Part shown: positions 10,711 to 22,435 of the stretch, piece after piece
How positions within the stretch are numbered: position 1 is the first letter of the stretch
Layout: the number at the start of each line of letters is the position of its first letter
Source: Halalkalicoccus paucihalophilus
GTDB taxonomy: Archaea; Halobacteriota; Halobacteria; Halobacteriales; Halalkalicoccaceae
Direction of reading: 5' to 3'
Length of the DNA: 64,000 bases
NCBI RefSeq assembly: GCF_001593955.1
Contig: NZ_LTAZ01000003.1
Span: forward strand, 124,001 to 188,000
Notes under the pieces: generated by a model
Told to the model about the DNA's origin: nothing
The model's database searches: none
What the model saw: the letters and a program-made list of their open reading frames with translations, nothing else
Program-made: the position numbers and the translations under genes

Positions 10711-12267
10711 ATGAAGGTCACCGACGCGCTCGACGGCGCCCTCTCGACGCTGGTCGAAAAGCCCGCGGCGGTCCTGCCGGCGTACTTCGTCGGCTACGGC
10801 GCCGGTACGGCTGCGCGGACGATCCCCCTCGTCGGGCTCGTTCTCGCGTACCTCCTCCTGCTCGTCCAGGGCCGTCTCGCCCCGGTCGAGGAGGCGCTCG
10901 CGGCGACCGACTTCGACGCGCTCGCGGAGGCGACGGACGACCCGGCGACCGCCGATCCCGCCGCCCTCCCGACCGAACAGTTGGACGAGGCGCTCGCGGG
11001 CCTCGTTACGCCGGGCGTCGTGGCGGTCCTCGGCCTCTCGATCCTGCTGGGACTCGCCGTCTGGATCCTCGTCGGTGCCGCCTTCCACGCCGGACAGATC
11101 CATACGGTGTACGCCGCCCTCGAAGGTAGAACGCCCGTCGAGTCGGGGGTGACGGGCGCGATTCGGGACACGAAGTCGTTCGTCGGACTTCGAGTACTCG
11201 AGTACGGCCTCCTTTTCGTCGCGAGCCTCGTCTACGGGCTCGTCGTCTTCGTCGCGAGTGCGGTCTACGCGGCCGATCAGGGGATCGGGCTGTTCGTCGC
11301 GGTCGGGGCCGCACTGCTGGCCCCGGTGTGGCTGCTCTCGCTTCTCGTGATCGCCGCCGCCTTCGTCTTCGCGCCGCAGGCGGTGGTCGTCGACCGTGGA
11401 GGGGCCATCGAGGGGCTCAAACGGAGCGTGGGGTTCCTCCGGCGACGACCGGGCGCGTTCGCCGTCTACGTGGTGATCGCGATCGGGATCTCGGCCGCGA
11501 TCGGCGGCGCGACCGCCCTCCTCTCGGTTCTCGGCGTCTCGAACGTCGTCTCGGTGCTCTCGTTGCTGTTCGTCACACCCTTTCTCCACCTCCTGAAGAC
11601 GGCCATCTACGCCGAGGGCGAGCGGATCGACACCCGCCCGCTGCTCTCGGACAAGGGTCGCGGGGTCCGGGCGCGACTCCGGGACGGCTGGGAGAAAAGC
11701 ACGGGGTCGCTGTGGTCGTTTGCCGTCTCGACGACGGGACTCGCGCTGACGGCGGCGAGCCTCGCGCTGTTCGGTCTCGGCACCCTCGGGGGCTATCTCG
11801 CGGTCGGCGGGTTCGCGATCGGGACGGGCGAGATCGCGGATCCCGCCGCCGTGTTCGGAGCGGTCCCGCTCGATATCTTCGTCATGATCGCGGTGAACAA
11901 CTGGCTGGTCGCGCTCGGCCAGACGTTCGCGGGGCTCGCGCTCGGGATCCCGACCGCGGTCAACCTGCTCTTTAACGGCGCGGTCGTCGGGATCGTCGCC
12001 GGGATCAGTAGCGATCTACTCGTGGTGGCCGCACTGGTCGTCCCCCACGGGATCGTCGAAATCCCCGCACTGGCGGTCTCGGGCGCGATCGGCCTTCACC
12101 TCGGGCACGTCGGCTGGCGGCGCTTTCGAGGCACGATCGACGACGCGGCGCTCGCGGCGGAGATCCGCACGGCTTTCTGGGTGATGGTCGGACTCGCGCT
12201 CGTATTCGTGGTCGCCTCGTTCGTCGAGGCGTTTCTCACCCCACGGATCGCGGGCTGGCTGCTGTGA
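10711..12267 (+). CDS. Polytopic membrane protein, haloarchaeal, function unknown
   Basis: 518-residue membrane protein with roughly ten or more hydrophobic segments separated by short charged loops. The first stretch (KVTDALDGALSTLVEKP, then a hydrophobic helix) and the amphipathic GGAIEGLKRSVGFLRRRPG segment recur in haloarchaeal membrane proteins related to the glycerophosphoryl-phosphodiesterase membrane domain. No catalytic or transport signature is visible. The start is the ATG at 10711, preceded by a gattatgcgac AT-richer element. An ORB-like 22-bp sequence begins right after the stop codon (12268). Confidence 0.8.
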   Translation: MKVTDALDGALSTLVEKPAAVLPAYFVGYGAGTAARTIPLVGLVLAYLLLLVQGRLAPVEEALAATDFDALAEATDDPATADPAALPTEQLDEALAGLVTPGVVAVLGLSILLGLAVWILVGAAFHAGQIHTVYAALEGRTPVESGVTGAIRDTKSFVGLRVLEYGLLFVASLVYGLVVFVASAVYAADQGIGLFVAVGAALLAPVWLLSLLVIAAAFVFAPQAVVVDRGGAIEGLKRSVGFLRRRPGAFAVYVVIAIGISAAIGGATALLSVLGVSNVVSVLSLLFVTPFLHLLKTAIYAEGERIDTRPLLSDKGRGVRARLRDGWEKSTGSLWSFAVSTTGLALTAASLALFGLGTLGGYLAVGGFAIGTGEIADPAAVFGAVPLDIFVMIAVNNWLVALGQTFAGLALGIPTAVNLLFNGAVVGIVAGISSDLLVVAALVVPHGIVEIPALAVSGAIGLHLGHVGWRRFRGTIDDAALAAEIRTAFWVMVGLALVFVVASFVEAFLTPRIAGWLL

Positions 12268-12289
12268 CTCCAGCCGAAGCGAAGGGGTT
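12268..12289 (+). repeat. ORB-like element (satellite origin recognition box)
   Basis: The sequence ctccagccgaagcgaagggg (plus two further bases) matches the ORB at 17947-17973 at 19 of the first 21 positions compared. It lies directly after a stop codon, about 5.7 kb from the origin core. AT-rich DNA follows at ~12297-12340. Whether Orc1 binds here is inference. Confidence 0.5.
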
Positions 12290-16149: not shown

Positions 16150-16168
16150 CAGTGATTCTAGACGTGTT

Positions 16169-16187
16169 GCAGGCGAAACGAAGGGGT
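16169..16187 (+). repeat. ORB-like element next to oapC
   Basis: gcaggcgaaacgaaggggt shares the uninterrupted core cgaaacgaaggggt with the origin boxes. It sits downstream of oapC, outside the main intergenic origin, in the same orientation as the 18158 and 12268 elements. Binding by Orc1 is inferred. Confidence 0.55.
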
Positions 16188-16215: not shown

Positions 16216-16707
16216 TCAGTTCTCGGGGCCGCGCCGGAACGATTCGGGTACTTCAATGACGTACCGGCCGTTCTCCTGGAGCGCGATGATGAACTCCTCG
16301 CGCTTGTAGAGTTCCATCAGGTTGAGTTCGTACTGACCGTGATCGACGATCCGGATACTCTCGAACTGGTCGTTCAGTTCCTCTCGAAGCTGTGAGAGGT
16401 CCGGTCTGTCGTCGGCGTCGGGTTCGGATGCGGGTTCGCTTGCGGCCTCCGACAGTTCGTCGGCGTCGACGACCGACGAGCGGGCGTCCGCCTGCGCGCG
16501 GTCCTCGCGGTCGGGTGTGCCGCTCGACGCCGGTCGTTCATCCGACGGTTCGGGGGTCGGATCGGGCTCCGACTCCGGTTCGTCGGGCCGTCTCGCCCCC
16601 TCGGGGAGGAACTGGAACTTGTTGCCGCCACACTCCGGACAGCCCGAAAGCATCTCCTTCGAGCCGTCCTCGAAGGAGTGGCCACATTCCGTACACTGGT
16701 GGGGCAC
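16216..16707 (-). CDS. oapC: Origin-associated zinc-ribbon protein OapC
   Basis: 163-residue protein with an N-terminal zinc ribbon (CTECG at residues 5-9, CPECGG ~20 residues later). A long Pro/Glu/Ser/Asp-rich disordered linker follows, then a C-terminal domain (VDHGQYELNLMELYKREEF, ALQENGRYVIEVPESF). This architecture and its place after oapB and oapA beside an orc1 origin match OapC of other haloarchaea. It starts with GTG at 16707, two bases after the oapB stop. Oap proteins are linked genetically to origin function; the molecular role is not known. Confidence 0.82.
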   Translation of the reverse strand: MPHQCTECGHSFEDGSKEMLSGCPECGGNKFQFLPEGARRPDEPESEPDPTPEPSDERPASSGTPDREDRAQADARSSVVDADELSEAASEPASEPDADDRPDLSQLREELNDQFESIRIVDHGQYELNLMELYKREEFIIALQENGRYVIEVPESFRRGPEN

Positions 16708-16709
16708 GG

Positions 16710-17096
16710 TTACTCTCGTGAGACGAGCGCGCTGATGAGCGTCTCGTCCTTGTGAAGGGTTTCGATCTGGTTGGCCGGCCCGATCACGGTCAGCTTCTTC
16801 GTCTCCCCTTTCCCTATCAACCGCCCCAGAAAGCCGGCGTCCTTGGTCCCGGACTTGGGGTAGGTCTCGATCTCGATGCCGTTGAAACCATCGGGATTGA
16901 TCTCGCTCATCGTCACCTCGATCAGTCTCGACTCCTCCTCGGGGGTCAGGCCCTCCTCTAGGATGACGATGTTGCCCTCGTGAACCCCGTCGAGGATCAT
17001 CCGTATCTTCTCCATGCTCGCGAGCGAGTCCATGCGCTCGCCGCTGATGAGGTCGATCTGCACCCCGTTTCCGTCCGAGCCGGTTATCTCTGCCAT
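16710..17096 (-). CDS. oapB: Origin-associated protein OapB (DUF2073)
   Basis: 128-residue DUF2073 protein. It starts MAEITGSDGNGVQIDLISG and contains the MEKIRMILDGVHEGNIVILEE and GFNGIEIETYP segments, with a lysine-rich patch (GRLIGKGETKKLTVIGP). The family is restricted to archaea and travels with an Era-like GTPase. The ATG at 17096 is four bases after the oapA stop; an in-frame upstream extension overlaps oapA and is rejected. It is the middle gene of the oapA-oapB-oapC operon, transcribed away from the origin. Confidence 0.85.
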   Translation of the reverse strand: MAEITGSDGNGVQIDLISGERMDSLASMEKIRMILDGVHEGNIVILEEGLTPEEESRLIEVTMSEINPDGFNGIEIETYPKSGTKDAGFLGRLIGKGETKKLTVIGPANQIETLHKDETLISALVSRE

Positions 17097-17100
17097 TCGA

Positions 17101-17742
17101 TCACCCGAAGTACTCCGCGATCTTGTCGTAGACTTCGTCCATGTTCTGCCCTTCGAGCGCCGACAGCTCGACGGTCTCGTGCTGTGGGAAGGCATTCTCG
17201 ATGCGTGTGACGTTCGACTCCTCCAGATCGATCTTGTTCGCGAAAATGAGGACGGGAAGGTTCTGGCTCTCGATGATCCCGACCAGCATGGTATTCACTT
17301 GGGTGAAGGGGTCGTCCGTCGAATCGAGCACGTAGATAACGCCGTCGACGTCCTCACGCAGCCAGTGCATCGCCTCGGCGACACCCTCGGTCGCCTCCCG
17401 GGAGCGACGAACGGCGTCTTCTTCTTCCATGTCGTACTCGAGGAACTCGTTGTAGTCGACCTTCGTCGTCACCCCGGGGGTGTCGACGATGTCGATCGAG
17501 ACCGACTGGCCGTTGCGCTTGATCTCGACGTTTTCCTTCCGGCGGGCGCGTCGGGTCTCGTGTGGTACGTGACTCTCCGGGCCGATGGCGTCGCCGGTCC
17601 AGTCACGGGCGATTCTGTTCGCGAGTGTCGTCTTACCCGCGTTCGGCGGGCCGTAGATACCGATCCGCTTCTGGGTATCGGTAGCGAAGAGCCGGTCTGC
17701 CGCGCGTGAGATACTATCTTTGATATCTGTGAACAGTCCCAT
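17101..17742 (-). CDS. oapA: Origin-associated Era-like GTPase OapA
   Basis: 213-residue small GTPase. G1 is GPPNAGKTT (residues 31-39), G3 is DTPG (86-89) and G4 is NKID (168-171). An N-terminal amphipathic stretch (GLFTDIKDSISRAADRLF) precedes the G domain and could touch membrane or a partner. There is no KH domain as in bacterial Era. It is the first gene of oapABC and its start borders the origin intergenic region, so its promoter overlaps the origin. The family is associated with haloarchaeal oriC, with function unresolved. Confidence 0.87.
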   Translation of the reverse strand: MGLFTDIKDSISRAADRLFATDTQKRIGIYGPPNAGKTTLANRIARDWTGDAIGPESHVPHETRRARRKENVEIKRNGQSVSIDIVDTPGVTTKVDYNEFLEYDMEEEDAVRRSREATEGVAEAMHWLREDVDGVIYVLDSTDDPFTQVNTMLVGIIESQNLPVLIFANKIDLEESNVTRIENAFPQHETVELSALEGQNMDEVYDKIAEYFG

Positions 17743-17946
17743 CCTGTCCTCCCGCGCCAGACGGCGCGTCCATGCGCGTAGACGAGTAGTCAGGGCTACT
17801 TAAGCCTGCGTCAGACATCCATACGATAGATTATACGAACGGGGAAACGCCGGTAGCGGACGGCGAGCGTGTCGTATCAAGACGGATGAACGAGTACAGC
17901 CTGATTACCGTCCGGCTCGGGAAGAGTAAAGTCGCCGAGTCGGAAC

Positions 17947-17973
17947 ACCCCCACCCCTTCGTTTCGACTGGAG
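17947..17973 (-). repeat. Origin recognition box (ORB) 1
   Basis: On the minus strand it reads tccagtcgaaacgaagggg followed by tggggg: a dyad half (ccagt), the gaaacgaagggg core and a G-string tail. It is the left-hand box, with its tail pointing away from the AT-rich core. Orc1 binding is inferred from match to known haloarchaeal ORBs. Confidence 0.85.
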
Positions 17974-17999
17974 AGCGTCGAACGACCGGGACCCAATTC

Positions 18000-18120
18000 G
18001 AGAGCGAGTTAGATTCCACTAGTAACAAGTCTCTAGACAAGAATATACTCTCCCTTAATAATTGCTGCTACTGCAGTACGGGTTTGGTTGTTTTTGCTAC
18101 CTCTTAGTGATTCCCCTTTA
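18000..18120. other. Candidate duplex unwinding element
   Basis: AT-rich relative to everything around it, with segments such as agattccactagtaacaag, caagaatatactctccctta and gtttttgctacctc. It sits between two inverted ORBs, the expected position for first strand opening. Confidence 0.7.
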
Positions 18121-18157
18121 CTAGAGCCCTTTCCGAGGGGGACCCTTCTCTTACCGG

Positions 18158-18185
18158 TTCCACCTGAAACGAAGGGGTGGGGGGG
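18158..18185 (+). repeat. Origin recognition box (ORB) 2
   Basis: Reads ttccacctgaaacgaagggg followed by tgggggg on the plus strand. It shares the gaaacgaaggggtggggg core with ORB 1 and is inverted relative to it across the AT-rich core. Confidence 0.85.
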
Positions 18186-18210
18186 ATTGGTGAGAAATAT
18201 CGAAGAATCA

Positions 18211-18232
18211 ACCTTTCTTCGTTTCCCGATTG
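18211..18232 (-). repeat. Degenerate ORB-like element
   Basis: The minus strand reads ccaatcgggaaacgaagaaa. It keeps gaaacgaa but lacks the G-string, so it is a weaker candidate binding site. Confidence 0.45.
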
Positions 18233-18373
18233 GTTCACGAACGGAAAGACAGTTTTAAGGCCCACTGTAACCTTGGGTTCGTCTGCACTACCTCTCGCCC
18301 GTTGGTCGTTTGAAACCCCTCGAATCGGTTGTTTCGGGCGGTTTTGGCGTCAAATCGGGCGTTCGAGCGGTAA

Positions 18374-18395
18374 CTCCACTTGAAACAAGGGGGTT
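18374..18395 (+). repeat. Origin recognition box (ORB) 3 in the orc1 promoter
   Basis: Reads ctccacttgaaacaaggggg on the plus strand, 24-45 bp before the orc1 start. Its position over the probable promoter suggests that Orc1 could repress its own gene (inference). Confidence 0.75.
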
Positions 18396-18418
18396 CGCGG
18401 ACGAGGCGCGCACGACCC

Positions 18419-19921
18419 ATGACAGCGAATGACTCACCAAGCGAGGACGGAACACCCAACGAGGAGCGAGACCAGTCGTTCGCCGTCGACGTCGAGGACG
18501 TCCTCGAGGACGGAATGCTCGATGAGACGGATTCGGGCTCGCAGGGGCTGTTCGACGACCTCCTTTCGGGCGAACCGATCTTCGAGAACAAGGAGGTGCT
18601 TCGCCCCTCCTATACCCCACACGAACTCCCGCATCGCTCGGATCAGATCAACAAGATGGCGACGATCCTCGTCGCCGCGCTCAGGGGTGAAACCCCTTCG
18701 AACATCCTCATCTACGGGAAGACGGGGACGGGAAAGACCGCGAGCGCGAAGTTCGTCAGCCAGGAGCTAGAACAGACCTCCAAGAAGTACGACGTCCCCT
18801 GTGAGGTCGAGTACATCAACTGCGAGGTGACCGACACCCAGTACCGCGTGCTCGCCCAGCTCGCGAACAAGTTCATCGAGCAGAACGAGGCCCACGTCGA
18901 ACGCCGTCTCTCGGATCTCGCCGACCTCCGCGAGGCCGTCGAGGAGGGTGTGACTGCAGCCGAAGCGACCCCCTTCGAGGATATCGGGGGGATCGACTCG
19001 CGGGTCGACGAACTCGAAGGCGAACTCGAGGACATGGAGCCGGTGCCGATGACCGGCTGGCCCACTGACCGGGTGTACAAAGAGTTCTTCGAGGCCGTCG
19101 ACTACCGCGAGCGCGTAGTGGTCATCATGCTCGACGAGATCGATAAGCTCGTCGAGAAATCGGGCGACGACACCCTCTATAACCTCTCGCGGATGAACTC
19201 CGAACTCGATAATTCAAGAGTGTCGATCATGGGCATCTCGAACGACCTCAAATTCACGGACTTCCTCGATCCTCGCGTGAAATCTTCGCTGGGCGAGGAG
19301 GAAATCGTCTTCCCGCCCTACGACGCGAACCAGCTCAGGGACATCCTACAGCACCGCGCGGATATCGCCTTCGAGGACGCCGCGCTGACCGACGACGTGA
19401 TCCCCCTCTGTGCTGCGTTCGCCGCCCAGGAACACGGCGACGCCCGCCGGGCGCTCGACCTGCTTCGAACCGCGGGCGAGCTCGCAGAGCGCAGCCAGTC
19501 CGAGCACGTCGACGAGAGCCACGTCCGCAAGGCCCAGGACAAGATCGAACTCGACAGGGTCGTCGAAGTGGTACGGACGCTTCCGACCCAGTCGAAACTC
19601 GTCCTCTTTTCGATCATCCTCCTCGAGAAGAATGGCGTTCACAACGTCAACACCGGCGAGGTGTTCAACATCTACAAACGCCTCTGTGAGGAGGTCGACG
19701 CAGACGTGCTGACCCAACGGCGGGTCACCGACCTGATCAGCGAACTCGACATGCTCGGGATCGTCAACGCCATCGTCGTCTCGAAGGGGCGATACGGCAG
19801 GACGAAGGAGATCAGCCTCTCGGTTCCGATCGAGGAGACCGAAGCGGTCCTGCTCGCGGACTCACGGCTCTCGGAGATCGAGGAGATCCAGCCGTTCGTG
19901 CAGGCCCGGTTCGACAATTGA
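18419..19921 (+). CDS. orc1: Orc1/Cdc6 replication initiator
   Basis: AAA+ origin-binding protein, 500 residues from the ATG at 18419. Walker A is GKTGTGKT (residues 100-107), Walker B is VVIMLDEIDKL, and sensor 1 follows at GISNDLKF. A family-specific ARRALDLLRTAGELAE helix and a C-terminal winged helix (FNIYKRLCEEVDADVLTQRRVTDLISELD) follow; the latter contacts ORBs. The ~50-residue acidic N-terminal extension is typical of haloarchaea. A TTG start at 18380 would place the N-terminus inside ORB 3 and is rejected. It is probably the initiator of the adjacent origin and loader of MCM. Confidence 0.95.
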   Translation: MTANDSPSEDGTPNEERDQSFAVDVEDVLEDGMLDETDSGSQGLFDDLLSGEPIFENKEVLRPSYTPHELPHRSDQINKMATILVAALRGETPSNILIYGKTGTGKTASAKFVSQELEQTSKKYDVPCEVEYINCEVTDTQYRVLAQLANKFIEQNEAHVERRLSDLADLREAVEEGVTAAEATPFEDIGGIDSRVDELEGELEDMEPVPMTGWPTDRVYKEFFEAVDYRERVVVIMLDEIDKLVEKSGDDTLYNLSRMNSELDNSRVSIMGISNDLKFTDFLDPRVKSSLGEEEIVFPPYDANQLRDILQHRADIAFEDAALTDDVIPLCAAFAAQEHGDARRALDLLRTAGELAERSQSEHVDESHVRKAQDKIELDRVVEVVRTLPTQSKLVLFSIILLEKNGVHNVNTGEVFNIYKRLCEEVDADVLTQRRVTDLISELDMLGIVNAIVVSKGRYGRTKEISLSVPIEETEAVLLADSRLSEIEEIQPFVQARFDN

Positions 19922-20854: not shown

Positions 20855-22435
20855 GTGCCGGGAGAGACGGACAGACGGATCATCACCGAACTCGCCGCCC
20901 GCGGCTACAACGCCGACCGCGAGGCCGTGACCCTGCTCGCGAGCGAAGCGGACCCCGACGATGCACTCGAGCGCGCCGTCGAGGCCGCACCCCCCGATGC
21001 ATTCAAGATCACCGGCGAACACCTCCGAGAAGTCTTCGAGGCTGACGCCCGGGACTCACCGCGGGACCCGACCGCCGAGACTCCCGATTCGACCTCGAAC
21101 ACCGACCCCTCGATTTCTCCTGCAGAACTCGAAGACCGAACGACGGATAGCGCTGATACTTCTCCATCCGAAACGGTGGGTGACGATCCGACCCGTACCA
21201 CGGACGAACGGGTCCCGACCGATCCCGAACACCGGTTCGTCGAGATCGTCGGCGACATCACCGGACAGAGCACGGGCACCGGCGAATACTCGGACTTCGT
21301 GACGGTCTTTCGCGATCGCTACGAGCGCCTCGCCGGCAAACTCCGCGGACGGATCAATCACCGGCCCGCCGACGCGATCCAGACGATGCCCGGCGGGGGC
21401 GACGCCGAGATGATCGGGATGGTAAACGACATCCGCTCGACGGCGGGCGGCCACTGGCTGATCGAACTCGAGGACACCACCGGCGTGTTCCCCTGTCTCG
21501 TGATGAAGGACCGCGAGATCGCGGAGCTGGTCGGCGAGATCGTCTACGACGAGGTGATCGCGGTTCGGGGAACGCTCGCCGACGACGCGGGCATCCTCTT
21601 CACCGACGAGATCTTCTTCCCCGACGTCCCCCATACCCATCAGCCGACCACCGCCGACAGACATGTCCAGGCCGCGCTCATCTCGGACGTCCACGTGGGC
21701 AGTCAGGAGTTCGCCGAAGAGGCCTGGAGCCGCTTCGCCGACTGGCTTCACACCGCCGAGGCCCAACACGTCGAGTACCTGCTGCTCGCGGGCGACATGG
21801 TCGAGGGCGTCGGCGTCTATCCGAACCAGGACGAGGAGCTCTCGATCGTCGACATCTACGAGCAGTACGAGGCGTTCGCGGAATACCTAAAGGAGGTCCC
21901 CGGCGATCTGGAGATCGTCATGATCCCCGGGAACCACGACGCGGTACGGCTGGCCGAACCCCAGCCCGCCTTCGACGAGGAGCTTCGGGAGATCATGAGC
22001 GCACACGACGCCCGCATCACGGGCAACCCCTCGACTGTCACGATCGAGGGCGTGTCCGTGTTGATGTACCACGGGATGAGTCTGGACGAGATCATCGCGG
22101 ACCTCCCCGAGGAAAAGGCGAGCTACGATAACCCCGAAAAAGCGATGTACCACCTGCTGAAGAAGCGCCACGTCGCGCCCAAATACGGCGGGAAGATGCG
22201 GATCGCGCCCGAGGAACACGACTACTTGGTGATCGACGACGTACCCGACGTCTTCCATACGGGTCACGTCCACAAGCTCGGGTTCGGCACGTATCACAAC
22301 GTGACCGCGATCAACAGCGGCTGTTGGCAGGAACAGACCGAGTTCCAGAAGAGCGTCAACATCGACCCCGACGTGGGCTACGCGCCGATCGTGGACCTCG
22401 ATACGCTCGACGTCACCGCCCGGAAGTTCACCTGA
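20855..22435 (+). CDS. polB: DNA polymerase D small subunit DP1 (exonuclease)
   Basis: Proofreading subunit of archaeal PolD, 526 residues. The calcineurin-like phosphoesterase motifs are complete: LISDVHVGSQEF, LLAGDMVEG, IPGNHDAVR, MYHGMS and HTGHVHKLG. This indicates an active 3'-5' exonuclease. An OB-fold domain (GGHWLIELEDTTGVFPC) precedes it. The N-terminal ~60 residues (ITELAARGYNADREAV...) form a helical domain, joined by a Ser/Thr/Asp-rich linker. Translation starts at GTG 20855. The catalytic partner DP2 is encoded at 46266-49769. Confidence 0.95.
   Translation: MPGETDRRIITELAARGYNADREAVTLLASEADPDDALERAVEAAPPDAFKITGEHLREVFEADARDSPRDPTAETPDSTSNTDPSISPAELEDRTTDSADTSPSETVGDDPTRTTDERVPTDPEHRFVEIVGDITGQSTGTGEYSDFVTVFRDRYERLAGKLRGRINHRPADAIQTMPGGGDAEMIGMVNDIRSTAGGHWLIELEDTTGVFPCLVMKDREIAELVGEIVYDEVIAVRGTLADDAGILFTDEIFFPDVPHTHQPTTADRHVQAALISDVHVGSQEFAEEAWSRFADWLHTAEAQHVEYLLLAGDMVEGVGVYPNQDEELSIVDIYEQYEAFAEYLKEVPGDLEIVMIPGNHDAVRLAEPQPAFDEELREIMSAHDARITGNPSTVTIEGVSVLMYHGMSLDEIIADLPEEKASYDNPEKAMYHLLKKRHVAPKYGGKMRIAPEEHDYLVIDDVPDVFHTGHVHKLGFGTYHNVTAINSGCWQEQTEFQKSVNIDPDVGYAPIVDLDTLDVTARKFT

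Follow-up and report, generated by a model that had tools for sequence, protein, structure and literature searches.

For a replication origin that adjoins the gene of its own initiator, one question is whether all the initiator sites of the locus belong to the origin. The case considered here is a stretch of 64,000 nucleotides from the archaeon Halalkalicoccus paucihalophilus (assembly GCF_001593955.1, contig NZ_LTAZ01000003.1, positions 124,001 to 188,000), hereafter the window, to which coordinates refer unless otherwise stated. There, several origin recognition boxes (ORBs), i.e. predicted binding sites of the initiator Orc1/Cdc6, are found around orc1. A preliminary description of positions 17743-18418 had read them as a complete Orc1-dependent oriC with an additional ORB over the orc1 promoter. 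From its sequence, the locus is a standard haloarchaeal oriC1, displaying the main features of a well-known family of which it is a new member. The new part would be a second, non-origin class of predicted Orc1 boxes, the origin itself being ordinary. No description of the arrangement of these boxes in the orc1 leader or of their presence within dp1, the gene of the DNA polymerase D (PolD) small subunit, was found in the literature searched, supplementary maps lying outside that search; earlier origin predictions were limited to the intergenic regions beside cdc6 genes.

Two classes of ORBs

The ORBs were scored with a weight matrix trained on 104 haloarchaeal loci, the top possible score being 29.4 bits. 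The three good ORBs of the preliminary description were recovered at 17954 (- strand; 28.1 bits), 18159 (+ strand; 28.8 bits) and 18375 (+ strand; 24.1 bits). The first two constitute the origin pair and bear an extended G-string (TGGGGG after the core): the left origin ORB spans 17948-17974 on the - strand, with a 19-mer core at 17954-17972, and the right one 18157-18183 on the + strand, with its core at 18159-18177. Across haloarchaeal loci, the extended G-string is present in 94/98 left and 95/98 right origin ORBs, as against a single one of 96 ORBs in the orc1 leader, and 2/60 and 0/30 of the ORBs within dp1. As the extended G-strings are essential for the activity of Haloarcula oriC1 (PMC3936714), the leader box is unlikely to act as part of the origin.

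The leader ORB of orc1

This third box, here named ORB3, occupies 18375-18393 (+ strand), i.e. 25-44 nt before the orc1 ATG (18419). The distance originally given, 24-45 bp, was right, whereas the location over the promoter has to be abandoned, since the conserved promoter elements both lie upstream of the box. These are a transcription factor B recognition element and TATA box (BRE/TATA; GAAAGACAGTTTTAAG; 18244-18259, + strand), almost invariant in seven Halalkalicoccus-like genomes, and a conserved block at 18270-18289 (+ strand; ACCTTGGGTTCGTCTGCACT; family consensus CATCTGGTTCGTCTGCATCAACTGGACG) predicted to mark the transcription start. The parts common to the seven congeners, again almost invariant, are GAAAGACAGTTTTAA for the BRE/TATA (18244-18258) and ACCTTGGGTTCGTCTGCA from 18270 onwards. 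The BRE/TATA sits 116-131 bp upstream of ORB3, and both the TATA position and the block consensus CATCTGGTTCGTCTGCATCAACTGGACG recur across 96 loci. With the usual TATA-to-start distance, transcription would begin near 18280, which places ORB3 in the predicted 5' leader of orc1, some 90 nt past the predicted start.

ORB3 is kept in all seven congeners and, more widely, 97/98 loci have an ORB between the right origin ORB and orc1, and in 94 of these 97 the last such ORB is on the + strand. It starts at a median of 28 nt (5-95% range: 24-44) before an in-frame start codon, and at 80 nt or less in 95/96 loci. The distance from the start-site block to ORB3 is 103-107 nt in 87/94 loci (about 105 nt from the block start here) and the sequence in between is without conservation, whereas the block lies anywhere between 114 and 789 nt (5-95% range) from the right origin ORB. 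This fixed spacing on one side and variable distance on the other tie ORB3 to the orc1 transcription unit and not to the origin. A conserved predicted initiator site is thereby found at a fixed place in the transcription unit of the initiator itself.

Other explanations for these leader elements were considered. That ORB3 belongs to a longer orc1 coding sequence, opening at the in-frame TTG at 18380, is ruled out by the spacing, which shifts by single bases among relatives. A small conserved open reading frame in the start-site block is unsupported, as the block lacks a start codon and its third positions are under no less constraint than the others. Nor is the block a general promoter motif: it gave 15 matches in 13 of 40 relatives, and all those that could be placed are at orc1. 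A search of Rfam for a structured leader RNA returned no match in the leader; the match to CRISPR-DR28 at 19436, inside orc1, was under the gathering score (E 0.41) and is attributed to chance. Taken at about 30 nt (18270-18300), the block is found haloarchaea-wide, and, read on the minus strand (TCCAGTTGATGCAGACGAAC), it is similar in many genera to the first half of an ORB.

ORBs within the dp1 coding sequence

Besides the leader, dp1 (also polB; 20855-22435, + strand; NF003116, 967 bits) carries ORBs inside its coding sequence. An ORB lies within the first 700 nt of 59 out of 65 distinct dp1 genes, and beyond the first 700 nt no ORB occurs in any of the 65. A minus/plus pair is found in 30/65 genes, with the two boxes exactly 57 nt apart in 25 of the 30, and all sites share a single codon phase with one exception.

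Such sites could have a trivial origin: the locus would be a plain oriC1 with ORB3 as one of its usual boxes, and a conserved linker peptide (PVETKG) would account for the matches in dp1. A peptide of the PVETKG type is indeed conserved there. Yet synonymous shuffling removes the dp1 sites, leaving over 200 rounds a mean of 4.0 genes with an ORB (maximum 9) vs. 59 observed, and an expectation of 0.015 pairs vs. 30 observed. Moreover, rare codons are fixed over the informative ORB positions, namely CCA in 54/55 cases for a usage of 10% and GAA in 59/59 for a usage of 30%, whereas the codons that face free ORB positions are variable and those of the flanks differ at the protein as well as the DNA level; synonymous identity reaches 0.95-1.0 at the informative codons against 0.26-0.48 in the flanks. 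From the shuffling and codon statistics, selection on the dp1 ORBs therefore acts on DNA, which rules them out as a by-product of protein conservation and makes the plain-origin account highly improbable.

In H. paucihalophilus itself the dp1 pair, which the preliminary description had overlooked, is decayed, when most relatives have it whole or in half. Its left half (21106-21124, - strand) scores 10.0 bits and retains the codon phase and 57-nt spacing of intact pairs; its right half (21163-21181, + strand) scores 15.4 bits at the position homologous to that of the ORB in 59/65 dp1 genes. Within the genus, the pair is intact in one genome (G003) and others retain one half; the pairs of many haloarchaea are found in the dp1 genes of L017-L158.

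Natural rearrangements

Genomes in which the locus has been broken up separate the ORBs of the origin from those of the genes. In G032 (L189 and L190; G032:C1:1722000-1733000 and 1883000-1889000), the origin ORB pair and oapA are at 1,885.6 kb, and orc1 and dp1 at 1,725-1,731 kb. Despite this split of 156-160 kb between origin and initiator gene, the block and leader ORB are still with orc1, and the pair is still in dp1. In G048, the pair is retained in a dp1 located 13 kb from the origin and, in G029, G040, G131 and G038, ORBs found 17-40 kb out prove to belong to dp1 genes that have been relocated, in which they lie at +269 to +314. The boxes of the second class thus travel with their genes.

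These cases bear on a further possibility, namely that ORB3, the dp1 pair and all other ORBs around orc1 are structural parts of one large origin, as additional sites of Orc1/MCM loading or looping. Extra ORBs do cluster near the origin, and the dp1 pair is inverted like the origin pair. However, ORB3 and the dp1 ORBs are devoid of the extended G-string required at Haloarcula oriC1, the minimal origin of which is described as two inverted ORBs and AT-rich DNA (PMC3936714), and in G032 both ORB3 and the dp1 pair persist some 160 kb away from the origin pair. A single large origin consequently appears unlikely, if less so than the plain-origin account.

Satellite ORBs

Two more ORBs, overlooked in the preliminary description, lie outside 17743-18418. 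The first, just downstream of oapC (16168-16186, + strand; 22.4 bits), is at the same place in four of the five congeners having that stretch. The second (12269-12287, + strand; 24.1 bits), located at the 3' end of the gene of a membrane protein (10711-12267), is one of the five genome-wide matches to the strict ORB pattern given below and has a counterpart in G004 and G006. In other haloarchaea, up to nine loci (L197, L201-L203, L205, L207-L209 and L211) have an ORB close to the helicase gene hel308 or immediately after it, several of these ORBs preceding purO (IMP cyclohydrolase); this recurrence suggests more targets or a mixed role.

Along 22 haloarchaeal genomes, 44 of 68 extra ORBs on the same contig are 10 kb or less from the origin pair. 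This clustering would fit with titration, where the extra ORBs (leader, dp1, oapC, hel308 and others) act as a sink for Orc1 limiting re-initiation and not expression. There is a precedent in Haloarcula hispanica, where the ORB-rich region oriC2D, downstream of cdc6E, negatively controls oriC2, likely by titration; there, too, ORBs additional to the minimal origin are proposed to restrain initiation (PMC3936714). For these two reasons titration is the main rival. It differs in that oriC2D gathers 11 ORBs in one 722-bp intergenic cluster and involves another initiator, when only about five strong sites are spread over 6.1 kb here, and the ORBs of leader and coding sequence stand singly or as one pair, each at a set location. 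Moreover, titration depends on the number of sites and not on their place, yet the 105-nt spacing of ORB3 as well as the codon phase and 57-nt interval in dp1 are fixed, and the ORB3 and dp1 sites alike accompany their genes when these are relocated. Constancy of spacing and codon phase, together with this joint movement, therefore favours a gene-linked role, and we hold titration to be rather doubtful, albeit the least so of the alternatives.

A proposed role for gene-linked ORBs in expression

The reading we favour, with a confidence somewhat above even, is that of an ancestral, Orc1-dependent haloarchaeal origin (oriC1) supplemented with a gene-linked second class of ORBs, which would limit the expression of orc1 and dp1 by roadblock. 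It builds on the identity of the sites, their conservation and division into classes, their fixed spacing, the constraint at the DNA level and their movement with the genes; Orc1 binding, origin firing and repression by roadblock are the predicted parts. At the origin, Orc1 would bind the inverted pair (17954, - strand, and 18159, + strand), with the extended G-strings facing outward; the AT-rich core would open between the two ORBs and MCM would be loaded there, initiation by Orc1 at the inverted pair being established for the family and presumed here. Bound at ORB3, Orc1 would block elongation through the orc1 leader and limit its own synthesis in a negative feedback. On the dp1 pair, it would likewise block the gene of the PolD small subunit, so that replisome supply would be tied to the initiator level. 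The self-repression of Orc1 suggested in the preliminary description is thus plausible, and strengthened by conservation, as a downstream roadblock instead of promoter occlusion.

In a broader proposal, to which we would give even chances, Orc1 would be both an initiator and a transcription regulator, whose targets (orc1 leader, dp1 coding sequence and hel308-side sites) would be marked by ORBs without G-string moving with the genes, in a DnaA-like circuit coupling the initiator level to PolD supply.

Several points weigh against the favoured reading. The loci are phylogenetically related, and the counts reported over them reflect conservation and not independent events. The position of the orc1 transcription start is deduced from the TATA spacing, and a roadblock alone leaves the fixed spacing of 105 nt unexplained. 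Besides, the oapC and hel308 satellites are not in leaders and are not predicted by a pure leader-roadblock model. Finally, as the dp1 pair has decayed in this species, the coupling to dp1 may here be weak or lost.

The origin and its neighbouring genes

The left and right origin ORBs form a 25-nt inverted repeat that is 88% complementary; the left one is identical or almost so in six congeners and the right one conserved among the aligned congeners. Between them, the AT-rich core (17993-18117) has an AT content of 54-66% per 50 bp, peaking at 66% in 18018-18067, the genome being at about 65% GC (about 35% AT); the core announced in the preliminary description is thus present, though modest. 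Within it, a block at 18068-18081 (CTACTGCAGTACGG) is genus-conserved and contains a palindrome; in a k-mer count over 98 loci, no common counterpart of this block stood out. A G-rich inverted repeat acts as an enhancer at Haloarcula oriC1, half-repeats being also known (PMC3936714). In the window, GAGGGGGACCC is found near 18135-18145 and the left side has only a weak counterpart (GACCGGGACCC), so this enhancer would be half present at best. The claim of completeness holds for the minimal origin, i.e. inverted ORBs and AT-rich core. A degenerate ORB reported at 18211 (- strand) is ruled out as a fourth box by its score of -0.7 bits and its absence from 6/6 aligned congeners.

Genome-wide, the strict pattern TSCANNNGAARCRRNGGGG has five matches in 3.98 Mb, all at this locus within 6.1 kb (C3:136269-142393, in contig coordinates), and its reversed control none. 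In 40 related genomes, a similar ORB pattern gives 2-8 matches per genome and the control pattern none. Along the 290-kb contig C3, the cumulative GC skew is at its maximum at 140 kb, the origin being at 142 kb.

The product of orc1 (18419-19921, + strand; 500 aa; NF001625, 656.7 bits, with Cdc6_C and Cdc6_lid) has 2qby_A (Sulfolobus solfataricus Cdc6-1; E 2e-107) and 2v1u_A (Aeropyrum Orc1) as nearest solved chains, with a well-aligned winged-helix region; its orthologues beside equivalent ORBs in relatives are 74-90% identical. On the left flank of the origin, all on the - strand, are oapA/arvA, encoding a small GTPase (17101-17742), oapB/arvB (16710-17096; PF09846) and oapC/arvC (16216-16707; PF09845). 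Searches of Pfam and NCBIfam verified these neighbours, as named in the preliminary description, and the order oapABC, orc1, signal peptidase and dp1 is the conserved haloarchaeal synteny. The assignment to oriC1, and with it the Orc1-dependent origin first put forward, is well supported by the agreement of conservation, synteny, GC-skew peak, genome-wide uniqueness of the ORBs and affinity of Orc1 to the Sulfolobus and Aeropyrum initiators. As the arvABC genes, i.e. oapABC, drive the formation of extracellular vesicles in Haloferax (PMC10927574), they may be linked to the origin by position alone. The Cdc6 C-terminal domain was matched at 15 places in the whole genome, which points to many paralogues and probably several more origins.

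Relation to known systems and significance

In Escherichia coli, DnaA boxes in the dnaA promoter ensure autoregulation, dnaA being origin-linked in many bacteria, and datA is a titration-type sink for the initiator. The present locus is alike in that initiator sites are found at the initiator's own gene, with a control that is established there and predicted here, but the protein is unrelated and the site lies past the predicted start, at a constant distance of 105 nt from a conserved block. Among haloarchaea, the oriC1-cdc6A of Haloarcula hispanica, oriC1-orc1 of Haloferax and oriC1-orc7 of Halobacterium share the inverted ORBs, extended G-string and AT-rich core, along with an adjoining orthologous orc1/cdc6, syntenic oap genes and dp1; for these origins, no description of the geometry of the leader ORB was found in the literature searched (supplements being outside). 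In Sulfolobus, the Orc1 paralogue Orc1-2 is a transcription regulator of the DNA-damage response (PMC9738581); this is a non-initiator paralogue with its own targets, whereas here the initiator itself would regulate.

As for the origin, it is one more member of a well-known family. The second-class sites, in turn, are precise and conserved in the tractable Haloferax and Haloarcula; they can be mutated with the origin, and in dp1 the protein, left intact, which makes the proposal directly testable. The dp1 sites would have escaped origin predictions confined to the intergenic regions beside cdc6 genes. The second class would bear on how archaea limit initiation and match the supply of the replisome to it.
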